A DNA stretch of 57,595 nucleotides. It comes from Pseudobdellovibrio sp. GTDB taxonomy: Bacteria; Bdellovibrionota; Bdellovibrionia; Bdellovibrionales; Bdellovibrionaceae. Below the pieces are notes generated by a model. That model was not told the DNA's origin. It saw only the letters and a list, made by a program, of their open reading frames with translations, and did no database searches. This document shows, in pieces, positions 12,051 through 34,021 of the stretch (position 1 is the first letter of the stretch; every line of letters begins with the position of its first letter). Made by a program: the position numbers and the translations under genes. Location of the stretch: the NCBI GenBank assembly GCA_023701385.1, contig JAMPXC010000018.1, positions 1 to 57,595 on the forward strand. The letters run 5' to 3'.

Positions 12051-12497
12051 ATGGCAAAAGCAGCAGCAAAAAAAGCGACTTCTAAAAAAGTAAAAAAAGC
12101 AGCTCCAGCAAAAGGCGCTGAGACTAATTTCGTTAAGCGCGTTACGGCAAAATCAGCTAAAAGAAATGCTAAAATCGCAACTTTCCAACCTGGTGATACG
12201 GTTAACGTTTACGTTAAAGTTATCGAAGGTGAAAAAGAGCGCGTTCAGTTATACAAAGGCGTAGTTACAAAAATCCAAGGTCACACTCACCAAACTTTTA
12301 CAGTTCGTAAAATTTCTGCAGGTGTTGGCGTTGAAAGAACTTTCCCGTTCAACTCTCCAGCTATCGAATCAGTTGAGTTAGTTGCTCACGGTAAAGTACG
12401 TCGCGCTAAACTTTACTACTTACGTGACTTAGACGGTAAAGCAGCTCGTATCGAGTCTGAATTAGCATCTACTTCATCTGATGAAGCAAAAGCTTAG
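12051..12497 (+). CDS. rplS: 50S ribosomal protein L19 with Lys/Ala-rich N-terminal extension
   Basis: The core (from about residue 38: [57 protein letters not shown]) is a standard bL19. At 148 residues it exceeds the usual 115 or so because of about 35 extra residues at the N-terminus made largely of Ala, Lys and Thr, resembling histone-H1-like tails. TAAGGA supports the ATG at 12051. The last 17 bases overlap the start of rnhB. Confidence 0.96.
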
Positions 12498-27436: not shown

Positions 27437-28135
27437 TTATCCTTTTCTTACAGTACGTTGTTCGATGCGTTTTTGTAAGTTAGTGCTTTTGAAAATTCTT
27501 TGCACGTAAACGCCAGGTGTGTGGATTTGATCTGGATCAAGTTCGCCCACTTCAACTAATTCTTCAACTTCAGCTACTGTAATTTTTCCAGCAGTTGCAA
27601 TCATCGGATTAAAGTTACGAGCTGTTTTTCTGAAAACTAAGTTTCCGAATTTGTCGCCTTTCCAAGCTTTAACAAATGCGAAATCACCAACGATACCTTT
27701 TTCTAAAACGAAATCACGGCCTTCAAATTGACGAACTTCTTTGCCTTCAGCGATTTTAGTGCCTACACCCGTCGGCGTGTAGAACGCAGGAATTCCGGCA
27801 CCTCCGGCGCGCAGGCGTTCAGCTAATGTGCCTTGCGGGCAAAATTCTAATTCTAATTCGCCAGACATGAATTGTTTTTCAAACGTAGCGTTTTCACCTA
27901 CGTAAGAAGACATCATTTTTTTAATTTGGCGAGTTTGTAATAATAAACCTAAACCGAAATCATCAACGCCTGCGTTGTTACTTACGCAAGTTAAACCTTT
28001 AACGCCTGAATCGCGTAAAGCTTCGATACAATTTTCAGGAATACCGCAAAGCCCAAAGCCACCAACTAACATTGTCATGTTGTCAGCAACTCCTTTTAAA
28101 GCTTCTTTAGCGTTAGCGTAAACTTTAGAAGACAT
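27437..28135 (-). CDS. scoA: 3-oxoacid CoA-transferase, subunit A
   Basis: The start is placed at ATG 28135 (233 aa), which matches subunit A N-termini ([15 protein letters not shown]); the in-frame start upstream would run into the thiolase. The glycine-rich [11 protein letters not shown] and [17 protein letters not shown] motifs are diagnostic, and [16 protein letters not shown] follows. It lies one base downstream of the thiolase stop and just before subunit B. Confidence 0.95.
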
Positions 28136-28136
28136 C

Positions 28137-29312
28137 TTAGATTTTCTCCACGATAACAGAAACAGCTTCACCGCCACCAATACAAAGTGTAGCTAAACCA
28201 CGTTTAGCATTACGTGTGTGAAGACCGTGTACAAGTGTAGTGAAAATACGGGCGCCTGATCCACCGATTGGGTGACCAATCGCAATCGCGCCACCGTGCA
28301 CGTTGATTTTTTCCATTGGAATTTCTAAAGATTTTTGGGCAGCCATTGTTACGTTTGCAAACGCTTCGTTGATTTCGAAAAGATCGATGTCATTTACGTT
28401 TAATGAAGCCAGTTGTAACGATGTTTTAATCGCGCCAACTGGAGCTGTTGTAAAGTACTTAGGATCTTGAGCAAATGTCGCTTGAGAAACGATGGCAGCA
28501 AGTGGTTTTAAACCACGGCGTTTAGCTTCTGATTCAGTCATTAAAACAACAGCGGCAGCACCGTCATTGATTTTTGAAGCGTTAGCGGCAGTGATAGTTC
28601 CATCTTTTTCAAAAGCTGGTTTCAAACCTGGCATTTTATCAAACATAGCTTTTGTGGGTTCTTCATCGATGTTAACAGTCACGTTACCTTTTTTACCTTC
28701 GATAACTACATCAGCGATTTCATTTTTGAAATGGCCTGCAGCAGTAGCGGCTTGGGCTTTTTTGTAAGAATCGATAGCGAAGGCATCTTGCGCTTCACGA
28801 GAGAAAGAAAATTCGCGAGAACAAATTTCAGCAGCATTTCCCATGTGGAAGTTATTGTATGGATCCCATAGACCGTCTTTGATCATTGAATCGACCATAG
28901 AAACTGCGCCCATACGGTAACCGTTACGAGAGTTTTCTAATAAGTGCGGAGCTAGTGACATATTTTCTTGTCCACCGGCAACAGCTACTGTCGCGTGACC
29001 TAAACGTAAAGAATCTGCAGCAAGCATAACGGCTTTTAAACCAGATCCACAAACTTTGTTGATTGTCATACAAACAGCTGAATTAGTGATACCAGCATAG
29101 ATCGCTGCTTGGCGCGCTGGAGCTTGGCCAACACCCGCCGTTAAAACTTCACCCATGATAACTTCATCGATATCAGTGGCTTTAACGTTCGCTTTTTCTA
29201 AAGCAGATTTAATAGCGATAGCACCTAAACGGGGAGCAGCTAATGTAGATAGTTGACCTTGAAAACTTCCAACTGGAGTTCTTTGGGCTGACACAATTAC
29301 GATTTTTTCCAT
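28137..29312 (-). CDS. Acetyl-CoA acetyltransferase (thiolase)
   Basis: The 391-residue enzyme has the thiolase triad: the nucleophile Cys in [13 protein letters not shown], the His in [16 protein letters not shown] and the second Cys in [11 protein letters not shown]. It makes acetoacetyl-CoA from two acetyl-CoA, or the reverse. Together with SCOT it forms a ketone-body or short-chain beta-oxidation module. AAGGAAA precedes ATG. It is the first gene of a four-gene operon. Confidence 0.95.
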
Positions 29313-29478
29313 ACATTATTTCCTTGCGGGCTTGGCCCGACATTCCTTTGTTAAATTTTAAATTCAAGTAAAAGCACTATATTCTAACACGACACTGAAA
29401 AAAAATTAAAATAAAACCCGTTGACAGTTTTTGGTATATGTCGCAACGCTATTTTGTATATCTCATCAGGAGTTTTCG

Positions 29479-30321
29479 GTGGCTAAATCAATAGTTAAGA
29501 AGATTGCGTCTAAAATTAAAGCAAAAGTAGCGGTTAAGCCCGTTGCTAAGGCAAAACCTGCAGCTAAAACTGTGGTAAAAGCTAAAGTTCAGGCAAAAGT
29601 AGCAGTTAAACCTGCTGCTAAGCCCGCACCTAAAGCTAAAGTTGTTCTTAAAAAAGAGGCTAAACCAGCCGTTAAGAAAACAGAAGCTCCTAAAAAAGTT
29701 GAAGCTAAAGCGGTTGTGGCTGAGAGCGTTAAACCACCTAAGGCTGACGCCAAGCTTAAAACTAAATCGAAAAAAGCTGAGAAGAAATCAACTGAAGATG
29801 ATGACGATTTCTCGTTTGATGATAATTTCGGCGATTCTGAAATCTCTGACTACGAAGACGATTTAAAAGACGTTGAAGAGCAAGACGAAGAAGAAAACTT
29901 AGATTTAACGGATGACGAAGAGGAAGAGCAAAAAGATGAAGAAATTTATCTAACTGATTCTGAAGGCCGTCGTTTATGTCGCGTACGTGATTGCGACCAA
30001 GTAGCTAGCGTTGAAGGTTACTGCCGTTACCATTACTTATTACTTTGGAAAAAAATCCAAATCAGAAAATCTATCTTACAAGATGGTAAGTTAGAAAAAT
30101 ACGTAGAAGATTTAACTTCACGTTACCCAGATAAATTCTTAGAGATGATTAAAAAAGATCTTAAATCTGAAAAAGAATTCTTATCGGCGATTCAAGAACT
30201 TGAAATCGACGAATCAGCACTGAACGAAATCGACGGAAACGACGAGGAAACACAAAGCTTCGCTGACGAAATCCGTGGTATCGGAGAAGCTCCGAGTATG
30301 GATGAAGACGGCGATTACTAG
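29479..30321 (+). CDS. Lys/Ala/Pro-rich protein with acidic centre and C-terminal Cys/His knuckle
   Basis: The GTG at 29479 is chosen because CAGGAG lies just upstream; an in-frame start 48 bases earlier has no ribosome site. The protein (280 aa) has three parts. Residues 1-95 are histone-H1-like repeats of Lys, Ala, Val and Pro. About 95-155 are extremely acidic. The C-terminal domain contains CRVRDCDQVASVEGYCRYHY, a C-x4-C-x9-C-x3-H cluster likely to bind zinc, followed by helices. A TTGACA -35 box lies at 29421-29426 without a good -10. Cytoplasmic nucleic-acid or ribosome binding is plausible; no family was recognised. Confidence 0.8.
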   Translation: MAKSIVKKIASKIKAKVAVKPVAKAKPAAKTVVKAKVQAKVAVKPAAKPAPKAKVVLKKEAKPAVKKTEAPKKVEAKAVVAESVKPPKADAKLKTKSKKAEKKSTEDDDDFSFDDNFGDSEISDYEDDLKDVEEQDEEENLDLTDDEEEEQKDEEIYLTDSEGRRLCRVRDCDQVASVEGYCRYHYLLLWKKIQIRKSILQDGKLEKYVEDLTSRYPDKFLEMIKKDLKSEKEFLSAIQELEIDESALNEIDGNDEETQSFADEIRGIGEAPSMDEDGDY

Positions 30322-30339
30322 TTCGAAAGACTGAAGGTG

Positions 30340-30371
30340 AAAAAAGGAAGCTTATAAGCTTCCTTTTTTTT
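30340..30371. terminator. Bidirectional terminator palindrome
   Basis: AAAAAAGGAAGCTT (30340-30353) and AAGCTTCCTTTTTT (30356-30369) are perfectly complementary around AT, with more T residues following. A-runs on one side and T-runs on the other let it end both the Lys-rich gene and the convergent cNMP-binding gene. Confidence 0.88.
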
Positions 30372-30424
30372 TGCTCTTGTTTTGGTTTTACACTTTTTAA
30401 CTCTGTAAACCCAAAACAAGAGCA
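30372..30424. repeat. 21-bp near-perfect inverted repeat next to the terminator
   Basis: TGCTCTTGTTTTGGTTTTAC plus A (30372-30392) is matched by its complement at 30404-30424 with one mismatch, leaving an 11-base loop. It is longer than a terminator needs, has no U-run, and abuts the terminator palindrome. A mobile-element trace or an RNA-processing hairpin are options. Confidence 0.75.
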
Positions 30425-30438
30425 TTTAGATTTTAAAA

Positions 30439-30789
30439 TTATTTCTTCGTTAACTGTTCCGTCGTTTTACGTAAGTTATCAGACAAGGTACGCATCACGA
30501 TTTTTACCCAGGCTGGTAATTTTTCTAACTGATCTAATAAATTTACATAAGGTAAAACAACTACTGCTGAATCTTGATTAGCTTTGATTGTTGCTGATCT
30601 TGGTTTTAAATCGAAAAGTGCCATTTCACCAATAAGTTGGCCTTCTTTGGCTTCGCTGACTTTAACATCTTTGCCGTCGATTTTTTTGATAATGTCGAAA
30701 GCCCCTTTTTTTACAACGTACATGTTGTCGGGGATTTCTCCCTCGTAAAATAGAATGGTGTCTTTAGGAATATCTCTAACTTCAGCCAT
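30439..30789 (-). CDS. Single-domain cyclic-nucleotide-binding (cNMP) protein
   Basis: The 116 residues are one CAP-type cNMP domain: KDTILFYEGEIPDNMYVVKKG, the phosphate-binding-cassette-like LIGEMALFDLKPRSATIKA (Glu and Arg retained) and a C-terminal helix. No DNA-binding domain follows, so it must act as a stand-alone cAMP/cGMP sensor or partner subunit. It starts 25 bases after the 196-aa gene, on the same strand, with no obvious ribosome site. Confidence 0.9.
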   Translation of the reverse strand: MAEVRDIPKDTILFYEGEIPDNMYVVKKGAFDIIKKIDGKDVKVSEAKEGQLIGEMALFDLKPRSATIKANQDSAVVVLPYVNLLDQLEKLPAWVKIVMRTLSDNLRKTTEQLTKK

Positions 30790-30814
30790 GAGTTAATCGT
30801 GACTGATTTTTTAG

Positions 30815-31405
30815 TTAGTGTAAATCATCCTTTTTCTTTTTTTTGAACATTTGCGGTTCGCTTGAAAGATTCTCTGCAAATTCATCAAATTCTTCTTCAG
30901 TTGCATCTAATACGTCTTCAGATTTTTCATCTTCAGCGTTTTTTAAAACACCGTCGTCATCAGCTAGACCTAAGAGCTTGTTAGCTTCAGCTTCAAGGTC
31001 TGGGTTTTCTGTTGAATGTTGAACCCAAACTTTTTTGCCTTCAAAAGTTGATTCGGTCCATGTGTACGGAAGTTCAATGTCTTGATCGTTTTCAAAGTAT
31101 TCAGCCACAAGAGATGCAAGCGCATCAACGGCCACAGAAATCGTTTCAAAAATCTTATTTTCGTCATTAGCAGGATTAGGGGGAAGATCTACCGAAGCCT
31201 CAAAGTTAAAGTGCTTAAGTTCGCCTTTTGAGTGTAGCCCAATGCGAAGCGTTATTTCTTTTTGGTAAATACGGCCATCGACCGACAGACTCATGGTTTT
31301 TCCCAGCTGTTTTTCGAAATTTTGCACAAAAACTGATCTAATTTGTTCGCTAAACTCCGGTGGGAAAGCGGTCCATTTTTGGCTGACTTTATAACGTGGG
31401 TTCAT
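30815..31405 (-). CDS. Conserved-looking hypothetical protein with acidic C-terminus
   Basis: The 196-residue protein starts with an alpha/beta region (YKVSQKWTAFPPEFSEQIRS... VDLPPNPAND...) of about 120 residues. It ends in a strongly acidic, probably disordered tail (ATEEEFDEFAEN) closed by KKKKKDD. There is no signal peptide or membrane segment. It is probably co-transcribed with the cNMP-binding gene and divergent from miaB. No family was recognised. Confidence 0.75.
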   Translation of the reverse strand: MNPRYKVSQKWTAFPPEFSEQIRSVFVQNFEKQLGKTMSLSVDGRIYQKEITLRIGLHSKGELKHFNFEASVDLPPNPANDENKIFETISVAVDALASLVAEYFENDQDIELPYTWTESTFEGKKVWVQHSTENPDLEAEANKLLGLADDDGVLKNAEDEKSEDVLDATEEEFDEFAENLSSEPQMFKKKKKDDLH

Positions 31406-31557
31406 GCACTAATCCTATTCTTGTAAACAAGCTCTTTTATTCACGGTTGGTGATCATAAGTTGACTGTTACAGAGGGGTTTTTTATATCTCTTGGTCTCA
31501 CGTTTCACAACCAGAATAATATATGTTTTGGCTACGCCAAAAAAGGATGAGCTCGCA

Positions 31558-32967
31558 ATGACGGATGTCAATGTCACGACAGAAGAAAATTTTCTAAATA
31601 TTCCAAAAAACTACTTAAACAACGATGTAGGTTTAGGCCGTGGCGTTTATATTTCTACTTACGGCTGCCAAATGAACGTGAACGATACTGAGCGTATGCA
31701 CTCGTTATTAGAGATGGCAAACTTCACGCCAGTTCAAACTCCAGAAGAAGCTTCGTTAATTATCATTAACGCCTGTTCAGTCCGTGAAAAGCCAGTTCAT
31801 AAAGTTTATTCAGAAGTGGGAACTTTTAAAAAATTAAAAGAGAAAAACCCAGGCTTAAAAATCGGCGTTGGCGGATGCGTTGGCCAACAGGAAAAAGAAA
31901 ACTTAATTAAAAATCAACCGTTAATCGATTTCGTATTCGGTACAGACAATATCGACAATCTTCCAAACTTAGTATCTCAGGTTTTTGAATCAGGTACGAA
32001 AGCAGTTAATGCAAAATTCGAACACCGTGCGCCTTACCACGTTGAAACTTTAGTGCGTAACCCGGGCGTATCGACATTCGTAAATATCACTAAAGGGTGT
32101 GATAATTTCTGTACATTCTGTATCGTGCCGTACACGCGTGGTCGCGAGAAATCTCGTCCGTTATCACACATTCTGTTAGACGTACGTACATTAATTCAAC
32201 GTGGTGTAAAAGAAGTGACTCTTCTTGGTCAGAACGTAAATTCGTATAAATCTGAAGATGGTCATGACTTTGCTGACTTACTTAAAAAAGTCGCTTTAGA
32301 AACTGGTATCGAGCGTATCCGTTACACGACGTCGCACCCTAAAGATTTTAATGAAAAGTTAATGCACGTGATGGCAGATCACCAAGATAAGATCTGTGAA
32401 TACGTTCATCTTCCGTTCCAAGCGGGCAGCACTAAAATTTTAGAGCGCATGAACCGTAATTACACGCGTGAAGAATACATTGCTAAAATCAACCAGATGA
32501 AAAAAATCATCCCGAACTTAGTGTTATCGACTGACATCATTGTAGGCTTCCCTGGTGAAACTGAAGAAGATTTCAATGACACAGTAAGAATGGTTGAGGA
32601 AGTGGGCTTTGAAACTATTTTTGCTTTCATGTATTCACCGCGTCCGTTCACAAAAGCGGCTAAGTTTGAAGACCAAGTGGCTGAAGAAGTTAAAAACCGC
32701 CGCTTAAATTATTTATTCGATGTTCATGATAAATTAGCTTTTGAATTAGTGGCTAAATACAAAGACCAAACTTTAAACGTGCTTGTTGAATCAGTTAACG
32801 AACAAGGTAAAGCTTTCGGACGCAGCACGCAGAATAAGTCAGTTTACTTCTTAGGTTCTAAAGACCTCATCGGCAAAACTGTTCCGGTTCGCATTATGAC
32901 GGCAACACCTAACGTATTCCGTGGAGAACTTGTCGGCGCAGTCGCAGCAGGTCTACAGGTTCAGTAA
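31558..32967 (+). CDS. miaB: tRNA-2-methylthio-N6-dimethylallyladenosine synthase MiaB
   Basis: The start at ATG 31558 (469 aa) follows AAGGATGAG; the frame extends 66 bases upstream without a ribosome site. The N-terminal Fe-S domain has ISTYGCQMNVNDTERM, NACSVREK and GGCVGQ. The radical-SAM core has GCDNFCTFCIVPYTRGRE, and a C-terminal TRAM domain follows. MiaB adds the methylthio group to i6A37 of tRNAs. Its stop overlaps the next gene start (TAATG). Confidence 0.96.
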   Translation: MTDVNVTTEENFLNIPKNYLNNDVGLGRGVYISTYGCQMNVNDTERMHSLLEMANFTPVQTPEEASLIIINACSVREKPVHKVYSEVGTFKKLKEKNPGLKIGVGGCVGQQEKENLIKNQPLIDFVFGTDNIDNLPNLVSQVFESGTKAVNAKFEHRAPYHVETLVRNPGVSTFVNITKGCDNFCTFCIVPYTRGREKSRPLSHILLDVRTLIQRGVKEVTLLGQNVNSYKSEDGHDFADLLKKVALETGIERIRYTTSHPKDFNEKLMHVMADHQDKICEYVHLPFQAGSTKILERMNRNYTREEYIAKINQMKKIIPNLVLSTDIIVGFPGETEEDFNDTVRMVEEVGFETIFAFMYSPRPFTKAAKFEDQVAEEVKNRRLNYLFDVHDKLAFELVAKYKDQTLNVLVESVNEQGKAFGRSTQNKSVYFLGSKDLIGKTVPVRIMTATPNVFRGELVGAVAAGLQVQ

Positions 32968-33518
32968 TGGTTGTTGATCACCAGCTTAAGGCAGACTTTT
33001 TATTTAACGCTCAACAAGACGAAAAATTTAATTTCGACGATGATGATTTAGTTGAGCTTAAACCTTATGGTTTAAGTTTAAATAATGACAACTCTCGTCC
33101 GTTTTTAATTTTAAAAGACGCTTTGGGTGAACACACTCTTCCAGTGGCTGTTACGCAAATCGAAGCGGGAGTCGCTTTATCACAATCAAGCCCTACACAA
33201 ATTGCAACTTCGCCACATACGTTTTTAGATAAGTTGTTAGCAAGTCTTGATATTAAGATTGATCGTTGTGTGTTTATCGAAATTACCGGTAATCACCAAT
33301 ACGTTCGTATTTTTATGACGGGGCATCCTCGTTACCAAAGCATTAAAGTTCGTGCTGATGAGGCGATGAGCCTTTGTCTACATTTAAAAGTTCCATTCTT
33401 TGCGACAAAAAGTTTTATTCAAAAATCAAAAGTGATGTCGACAACTTCTATGGACGAAACAGCTCACATTGTTATGCAGCAGCGTAATGTAGCCGTTAAG
33501 AAGGAGTTACTTCACTAA
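32967..33518 (+). CDS. DUF151 / bifunctional-nuclease (BFN) family protein
   Basis: The 183-residue protein carries the BFN-domain pattern: RPFLILKDALGEHTLPVAVT, EAGVALSQ, TFLDKLLASLDIKIDRCVF and SIKVRADEAMSLCLHLKVPF (the conserved R-x-DEA, usually R-PSDA). DUF151 proteins have been described as nucleases in plants and are common next to miaB in bacteria, where their role is unclear. It overlaps miaB and the downstream carbonic-anhydrase-like gene by one base each, so three proteins are tightly coupled. Confidence 0.85.
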   Translation: MVVDHQLKADFLFNAQQDEKFNFDDDDLVELKPYGLSLNNDNSRPFLILKDALGEHTLPVAVTQIEAGVALSQSSPTQIATSPHTFLDKLLASLDIKIDRCVFIEITGNHQYVRIFMTGHPRYQSIKVRADEAMSLCLHLKVPFFATKSFIQKSKVMSTTSMDETAHIVMQQRNVAVKKELLH

Positions 33519-34021
33519 TGATTATCGAAGCTCGTGGTAAAAAACCTATTCTTGGTGAAAATGTATTTGTCGCTGATAACGCCCGTATTATCGGTGATGT
33601 GGTTGTCGGTAATCGTGCCTCTATCTGGTATAACGTAACTATTCGCGGTGACGTGATGCCAATCTCAATTGGCACTGAAACTAATATTCAAGATGGCTCG
33701 GTTTTACACGGCACCTATGGTAAGTACTCTTGTAAGATTGATGATCGTGTGACGATCGGCCACAGCGTTATTCTTCACGGTTGCACAATCGGTCGTAAAT
33801 GTTTAATCGGTATGGGTTCTATCGTTATGGATGGAGCTGAAATCGGCGAACATTCAGTGGTCGGTGCTGGAAGCTTAGTGACTGAAGGTAAAAAGTTTGA
33901 ACCCTATTCTTTAATTATGGGTCGCCCGGCGGTATTTAAACGTAAACTGACTGAAGAGGAAATTAAGTTTTTAGATCAGTCGGCAGATAATTATCTTCTT
34001 TATAAAACTTGGTACGAATAA
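33518..34021 (+). CDS. Gamma-carbonic-anhydrase-like left-handed beta-helix protein
   Basis: The 167-residue protein consists of hexapeptide repeats (IIGDVVVGNRASIWYNVTIR, IGTETNIQDGSVLHGT, VTIGHSVILHGCTIGRKCLI) with three candidate zinc His residues (in VLHG, IGH and ILHG), as in the gamma-CA / YrdA / PaaY family. Whether it is an active carbonic anhydrase cannot be told from sequence. AAGGAG precedes the ATG. It closes the miaB operon and converges on the LysR gene. Confidence 0.93.
   Translation: MIIEARGKKPILGENVFVADNARIIGDVVVGNRASIWYNVTIRGDVMPISIGTETNIQDGSVLHGTYGKYSCKIDDRVTIGHSVILHGCTIGRKCLIGMGSIVMDGAEIGEHSVVGAGSLVTEGKKFEPYSLIMGRPAVFKRKLTEEEIKFLDQSADNYLLYKTWYE

Follow-up and report, generated by a model that had tools for sequence, protein, structure and literature searches.

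An unnamed single-copy protein family with a putative zinc knuckle found across the phylum Bdellovibrionota

The closest described counterparts of the protein studied here are accessory knuckles in phage proteins of HNH and Endonuclease VII type (phrog_5351, phrog_1271 and an open reading frame on the viral contig L282). They have the same ligand spacing and likewise carry an Arg after the third Cys, a Tyr after the His and a Trp four residues on. In the viral-contig protein (L282, 2815-3750; 311 residues), an Endonuclease VII domain (Pfam E 7.6e-18) is preceded by a tandem pair of C-x4-C-x9-C-x2-H knuckles, the second of which can be aligned with the family along 28 residues at an identity of 46% (hhalign probability 94.7). 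HNH endonuclease models of the PHROG collection match 8 and 4 of 35 family members at E ≤ 0.01, the best value being 7.6e-5. The nuclease domain, however, belongs to the phage proteins. No HNH domain is present in the Bdellovibrionota protein, and the possibility of a whole HNH nuclease was rejected, with no nuclease family over the Pfam cut-off in the protein or in its 68 and 35 relatives. Conversely, nothing in the phage proteins corresponds to the helices behind the knuckle, to the tails or to the single-copy presence throughout a phylum that characterise the Bdellovibrionota protein. Judged from these alignments, the knuckle is a small shared module found in phage-type nucleases, and its helical continuation is not shared. 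A preliminary description of this DNA had held that its reading depended on the C-terminal region matching no characterised family; the knuckle alone does find such a match, and the helical part does not. Because it is common to phage-type nucleases, the knuckle also provides the best, if indirect, evidence that this module contacts nucleic acid.

Other known systems resemble single parts of the protein. The WRKY19-type zinc finger (PF24906) aligns with the knuckle region over 22 of 24 positions, but the scores of 12.2 and 16 bits stay below the cut-off of 27, and Zf_WRKY19 was not accepted. The H1-like bacterial proteins Hc1 and AlgP have a Lys/Ala/Pro-rich basic tail in common with it, whereas in the Bdellovibrionota protein this tail is located at the N-terminus, varies and is almost lost in some lineages. 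Family membership is not supported either, since linker histone, Hc1 and HC2 are not among the Pfam matches of the whole protein at E ≤ 1. The H1-likeness proposed in the preliminary description is therefore one of tail composition only; the protein may still act in an H1-like manner through its tail.

The same phylum harbours the Bdellovibrio histone HBb (Bd0055), and an HBb-like histone of 65 aa is encoded by a separate gene of the same genome (L278:1471-1668). According to an excerpt of PMC11390915, ZZ-finger histones also couple a zinc module to helices. The ligand pattern there differs from C-x4-C-x9-C-x2-H. In addition, the HBb-like protein of the same genome has no profile similarity to the family (hhalign with family alignment A3, probability 0.2), so that, at the level of sequence profiles, a histone fold of HBb type was discarded. 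The C-terminus shares an acidic tail and an aromatic end with the C-terminal tip of SSB. That tip carries Pro-Phe, whereas the Bdellovibrionota protein ends with D-G-D-Y, without Pro-Phe, and Pfam found no OB-fold family in it.

The window, i.e. the whole stretch of 57,595 nucleotides analysed here, contains the gene in an unbroken reading frame of 280 codons with GTG as the first. Its features are collected in Table 1. Relatives within the genus have the same start position, and their proteins open with MAKK or MAKS.

Table 1. Features of the gene and its downstream neighbourhood, in positions of the window
Feature	Position	Strand	Basis or remark
Ribosome-binding site, AGGAG	29468..29472	+	6 nt 5' of GTG; sequence
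Coding sequence, 280 aa, GTG start	29479..30321	+	Start agrees with genus relatives; one copy in own genome
Basic tail, residues 1-104, Lys/Ala/Pro/Val-rich, net +28	29479..29790	+	Composition
Acidic stretch, residues 105-154, net -27	29791..29940	+	Mostly a Bdellovibrionia feature
Predicted beta-hairpin into knuckle, residues 155-169	29941..29985	+	AlphaFold models
Knuckle C167-x4-C172-x9-C182-x2-H185, putative zinc ligands	29977..30033	+	Conservation across relatives
Predicted helices 175-201, 205-213, 218-229, 231-240 (residues 175-240)	30001..30198	+	AlphaFold, mean pLDDT 75, pTM 0.46
Acidic C-terminal tail, aromatic last residue, residues 247-280	30217..30318	+	Composition and relatives
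Terminator-like hairpin, 14 pairs, then T run	30339..30370	+	Directly 3' of gene
Convergent gene, 196 aa, often accompanying	30815..31405	-	Neighbourhood counts
MiaB-like radical SAM methylthiotransferase	31492..32967	+	Pfam UPF0004, Radical_SAM, TRAM

Residues of opposite charge are strongly segregated along the protein. The basic tail includes 34 K/R, 6 D/E and 24 A (net +28, pI 10.6) and is followed by the acidic stretch with 29 D/E and 2 K/R (net -27), while the core (residues 155-246) has a net charge of -2 and pI 5.5, and residues 247-280 of -11. The acidic middle noted in the preliminary description is confirmed as the most acidic among 54 open reading frames of the window, whose most acidic 40-residue stretch is in this gene (-21; second -14). 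The N-terminus, described as basic and repetitive, is certainly basic; its repetitiveness is compositional, as Tandem Repeats Finder detected no array in the tail. Among the same 54 open reading frames, its basic stretch (+13) is exceeded solely by that of a frame with an RF-1 domain (+14) and equalled by that of ribosomal protein L19. The latter (12051-12497, + strand) is extended at its N-terminus by a Lys/Ala-rich segment similar to the tail of the studied gene, so such tails alone are no signature of DNA binding in Pseudobdellovibrio sp. A scan for sigma-70 promoters gave one weak match, a number below the mean in shuffled sequences, and none that is clear, and the Rfam scan of positions 28000-34000 returned no family.

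Searches for a known family support the statement of the preliminary description that no named one applies. Pfam and NCBIfam scans of the protein gave nothing over cut-off, and the PHROG scan, in a collection without curated cut-offs, had a best E of 0.0029 and led to no family assignment. Pfam matches were weak and scattered when relatives (68 and 35) were scanned singly. Hints of Bromo_TP, Cas9_C_2, BET and DUF5763 among them were taken as chance; the Bromo_TP matches, which speak against discarding the histone-fold profile, are weak (15 of the 68 relatives, with E values down to 0.0056) and are regarded as chance hits for helices. Regulators of the CarD_CdnL type were also dismissed, the CarD/CdnL domain not being among Pfam matches at E ≤ 1. 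Sequence profile searches of the PDB ended at best E values of 0.68 and 0.08, with unrelated enzymes and dystrophin, and the literature searches listed no paper naming this gene.

The AlphaFold model of the 92-residue core, built from 77 sequences (mean pLDDT 75, pTM 0.46), consists of a beta-hairpin and four helices, of which one is long, with the third Cys and the His on it, and three are shorter. The zinc-knuckle-like module plus helical part perceived in the preliminary description is supported. The model of a longer construct was poorer (mean pLDDT 62, pTM 0.37). Neither model (mean pLDDT 62 and 75) matched PDB chains at E ≤ 0.001, nor did the core model match BFVD viral models at the same threshold, and fold comparison by VIA-align reached best Z values of 3.8 and 2.3. 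At such model confidence, a missing fold match does not indicate a new fold.

To follow the distribution of the core, which is present once in the own genome, genomes of the class and of the phylum were searched. At class level it was found in 132 of 143 genomes, including all 105 of good quality, and at phylum level, with an alignment of 48 sequences as a query, 331 of 368 genomes contained it (230 of the 234 good-quality ones). A matching genome of the phylum almost always has a single core match. Retention of the core even in genomes of only 1.2-1.5 Mb, together with its wide distribution, suggests a housekeeping role. Genomes without a match are mostly of lower completeness; G207, G274 and G366 are rated good and still have no clear match, and no copy was found in the 1.6-Mb genome G207. 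Copies in the most divergent family, f29, retain the knuckle and little else. Homology of these weak matches is supported by G364 and G367, where a short knuckle protein adjoins a MiaB-like gene. Genome G364 (locus L274) also has a second short knuckle protein, in an open frame of 93 residues.

In a scan of genome contigs, the best 80 of 218 relatives have mostly Bdellovibrio or Bdellovibrionota-type titles, with a few others (Streptomyces griseus MAG, Proteobacteria, Deltaproteobacteria, bacterium). Among the matches listed, identity is 90% in Bdellovibrio sp. qaytius and 76% in B. bacteriovorus strain kdesi. The contig titled as a Streptomyces griseus MAG (CALQIT020000047.1) has the gene at 77% identity, and its title looks wrong. 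When relatives were sought around the most divergent genome, all matches lay within the phylum. Plasmid and phage records did not match the core. On viral contigs, family alignment A1 matched none of 41 candidate stretches and A3 one of 32, in the knuckle only. Origin from a mobile element was rejected on these grounds.

Taking into account all evidence, we consider it about an even chance (probability roughly 0.5) that the gene encodes a phylum-wide, single-copy, housekeeping nucleic-acid-binding zinc protein of Bdellovibrionota, with the RNA side slightly favoured. Observation covers the distribution, the copy number, the conservation of ligand residues, the tail statistics, the shared knuckle and the lack of known families; zinc binding, nucleic-acid binding, partner docking and the RNA side are inferred.

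Conservation is concentrated in the knuckle. The preliminary description gave its spacing as C-x4-C-x9-C-x3-H; this has to be corrected to C-x4-C-x9-C-x2-H (C167, C172, C182, H185), which is exact in all 211 loci with a match. Over 70 class-level loci, no variation is seen at the three Cys, the His, Gly163 or Arg183; both sets contain repeated genomes. Tyr186 and Trp190, just behind the knuckle, are near-invariant. In 35 sequences from the whole phylum, the three Cys, the Arg and the His are invariant, and one Tyr, one Trp and one Leu nearly so. Conservation of the Cys and His residues is far beyond chance. Constancy of these residues in homologues, on which the preliminary description had relied, extends to all three Cys; the His is replaced by Asp in 2 of 40 later loci (L237 and L252), both fetched members of family f22. 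This Asp is still a possible zinc ligand.

Tails are, in contrast, variable. Counted from the first Met of the open frame, 9 to 417 residues precede the knuckle across the phylum, and several proteins of families f14-f16 are barely longer than the core. Tail statistics were compiled on 156 distinct proteins, 117 from Bdellovibrionia and 39 others, with the two Asp-bearing loci left out. Of these, 112 and 26, respectively, have a basic stretch, and 87 and 7 an acidic stretch N-terminal of the knuckle. Variation of tails while the core stays the same marks the core as the part kept by selection, and charge segregation as an elaboration of lineages. Accordingly, the charge-segregated design stressed in the preliminary description is not what is essentially conserved. 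Autoinhibition through the acidic middle, proposed there as well, would be at most a lineage add-on, because this segment is mostly confined to Bdellovibrionia.

Variability of tails also bears on an alternative in which the protein buffers polyphosphate or metal, its lysine tail binding polyphosphate as in H1-like AlgP and its knuckle storing zinc. An excerpt of PMC9239181 ties AlgP, an H1-like protein, to polyphosphate granules and gives a precedent; tail-less lineages nevertheless keep the core, no AlgP-type family is among the Pfam matches, and we regard this function as very improbable.

The acidic-aromatic C-terminus is a feature added to the preliminary description, as is the near-universal single-copy presence of the gene in the whole phylum. 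Defined as at least three acidic residues in the last eight plus a final F, Y or W, such a tip ends 99 of 117 distinct Bdellovibrionia proteins, 13 of 39 others and 2 of 1488 neighbouring control open reading frames; the counts come from related sequences and not from independent events, yet the contrast is still large. This tip and the near-neutral, well conserved helical core would fit an adaptor of a protein machine, such as RNA polymerase or a replication/repair factor, in which the helical core and the SSB-like acidic-aromatic tail do the work and the knuckle is only structural. We find this explanation unlikely, as the tip occurs in just a third of proteins from other families (13/39) and has no Pro-Phe known from SSB, and as f29, with its helical part lost or diverged, keeps precisely the knuckle.

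For the preferred reading, that of a housekeeping nucleic-acid-binding zinc protein, we propose that function resides in the conserved core, where a putative zinc knuckle of C3H type (once C3D) is joined to a short helical domain. Contact with nucleic acid would most likely be made by the knuckle, which is of the accessory type in phage HNH and Endonuclease VII proteins, and docking of a protein partner would most likely fall to the helices together with the acidic C-terminal tip and its final Phe or Tyr. Through the N-terminal Lys/Ala-rich tail, the protein would gain a loose electrostatic hold on RNA or DNA. The acidic middle of the Bdellovibrionia proteins may compete with nucleic acid for the basic tail and in this way tune it. 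RNA or the ribosome is narrowly favoured over the chromosome as a probable target. Families f13 and f14 weaken the proposal, since their proteins have neither the aromatic tip nor the long tail and the ribosomal gene rplC is 0.7-3.3 kb off.

Genomic neighbours were inspected with regard to the target. Of 78 distinct Bdellovibrionia loci with more than 4.5 kb of downstream flank, 59 have the MiaB-like gene downstream on the same strand. It also occurs in loci of families f15-f17 and f29 and is the very next gene in the f17 locus, where it overlaps by a few bases, in one f16 locus out of two and in one of the f29 loci; TIGR01574 identified MiaB in 5 of 8 genomes. In f13 and f14, rplC lies downstream in 4 loci, and in f28 the gene follows rpoA-rplQ in 4 loci, with a pseudouridine-synthase-like gene after it and a RimO-like gene in 3 of the 4. 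Labels outside the window (L3, rpoA, L17, RluB, RimO, guaA, guaB, S20 and L32) were assigned by eye or from short motifs, except that PF00297 identified the L3 gene of the own genome. The remaining families show neither a MiaB-type link nor a neighbourhood of ribosomal genes. On the other side, a thiolase gene is located upstream on the opposite strand in 95 of 102 Bdellovibrionia loci, a count in which L131 and L133 are without the centre gene. A co-directional upstream gene in 69 of 102 loci is missing from the window, where the divergent thiolase gene sits next upstream. The neighbours lean towards translation; a retained old chromosomal block with guaB and guaA is an equally simple explanation. 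Linkage with the MiaB-like gene may be nothing but such a block, because the gene has its own terminator and most other families are without the link.

Codon usage was compared with 26 genes of the ribosomal-protein cluster of the own genome (ribosomal proteins plus EF-G and RpoA, with labels given by eye). The index of the gene is 0.643, ranking sixth among the 54 open reading frames of the window; it reaches 0.707 in the core, against a mean of 0.698 in the reference genes, and 0.528 in the tail, all values being drawn from one genome. The protein thus shares with ribosomal proteins near-universal single-copy presence and, in one genome, codon usage. A basic folded core is not found: the net charge of -2 and pI of 5.5 are unusual for a ribosomal protein and count against this assignment. 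Still, a more specific version of the preferred reading can be put forward tentatively, namely an essential ribosome or RNA-metabolism component that defines the phylum, in which a C3H knuckle of phage-nuclease type, together with its helical partner, was fixed early as a permanent element of the gene-expression machinery. Charged tails, differing in length between lineages, would have been added later.

The main competitor on the DNA side is a nucleoid-associated protein, whose Lys/Ala tail would coat DNA in H1-like fashion, with the knuckle making local DNA contact and acidic stretches limiting aggregation. Acidic tails limit aggregation in HMG-type proteins. The composition of residues 1-104 and the occurrence of the knuckle in viral DNA endonucleases are compatible with such a role, and so is the extreme compactness of attack-phase Bdellovibrio nucleoids, as described in an excerpt of PMC10627809. 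Considering that the own genome already has an HBb-like histone, that several families are nearly without a basic tail, and that translation genes are among neighbours in several families, we hold this role to be possible but doubtful.

For the housekeeping protein preferred here, the combination of a highly conserved core (230 of 234 good genomes) and no family name in Pfam, NCBIfam or PHROG points to missing basic biology of predatory bacteria. On the basis of sequence comparisons, the family can be described as an unnamed, phylum-wide, single-copy zinc-knuckle family, zinc being putative. It is a candidate marker gene of Bdellovibrionota for metagenomes and an example of a phage-type knuckle serving as a cellular module. 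As far as excerpts of the two reports indicate, saturating Tn-seq (PMC6561027) and nucleoid proteomics (PMC10627809) of B. bacteriovorus have been published, and these data should bear on essentiality and nucleoid location, respectively.

The convergent gene located between the studied gene and the MiaB-like gene occurs together with the former in 77 of 102 loci and in 19 of 40 and, searched with one query sequence, is present in 210 of 357 genomes of the phylum. Its 196-aa product, without a Pfam or NCBIfam match, is acidic towards the end and includes a short Lys run.
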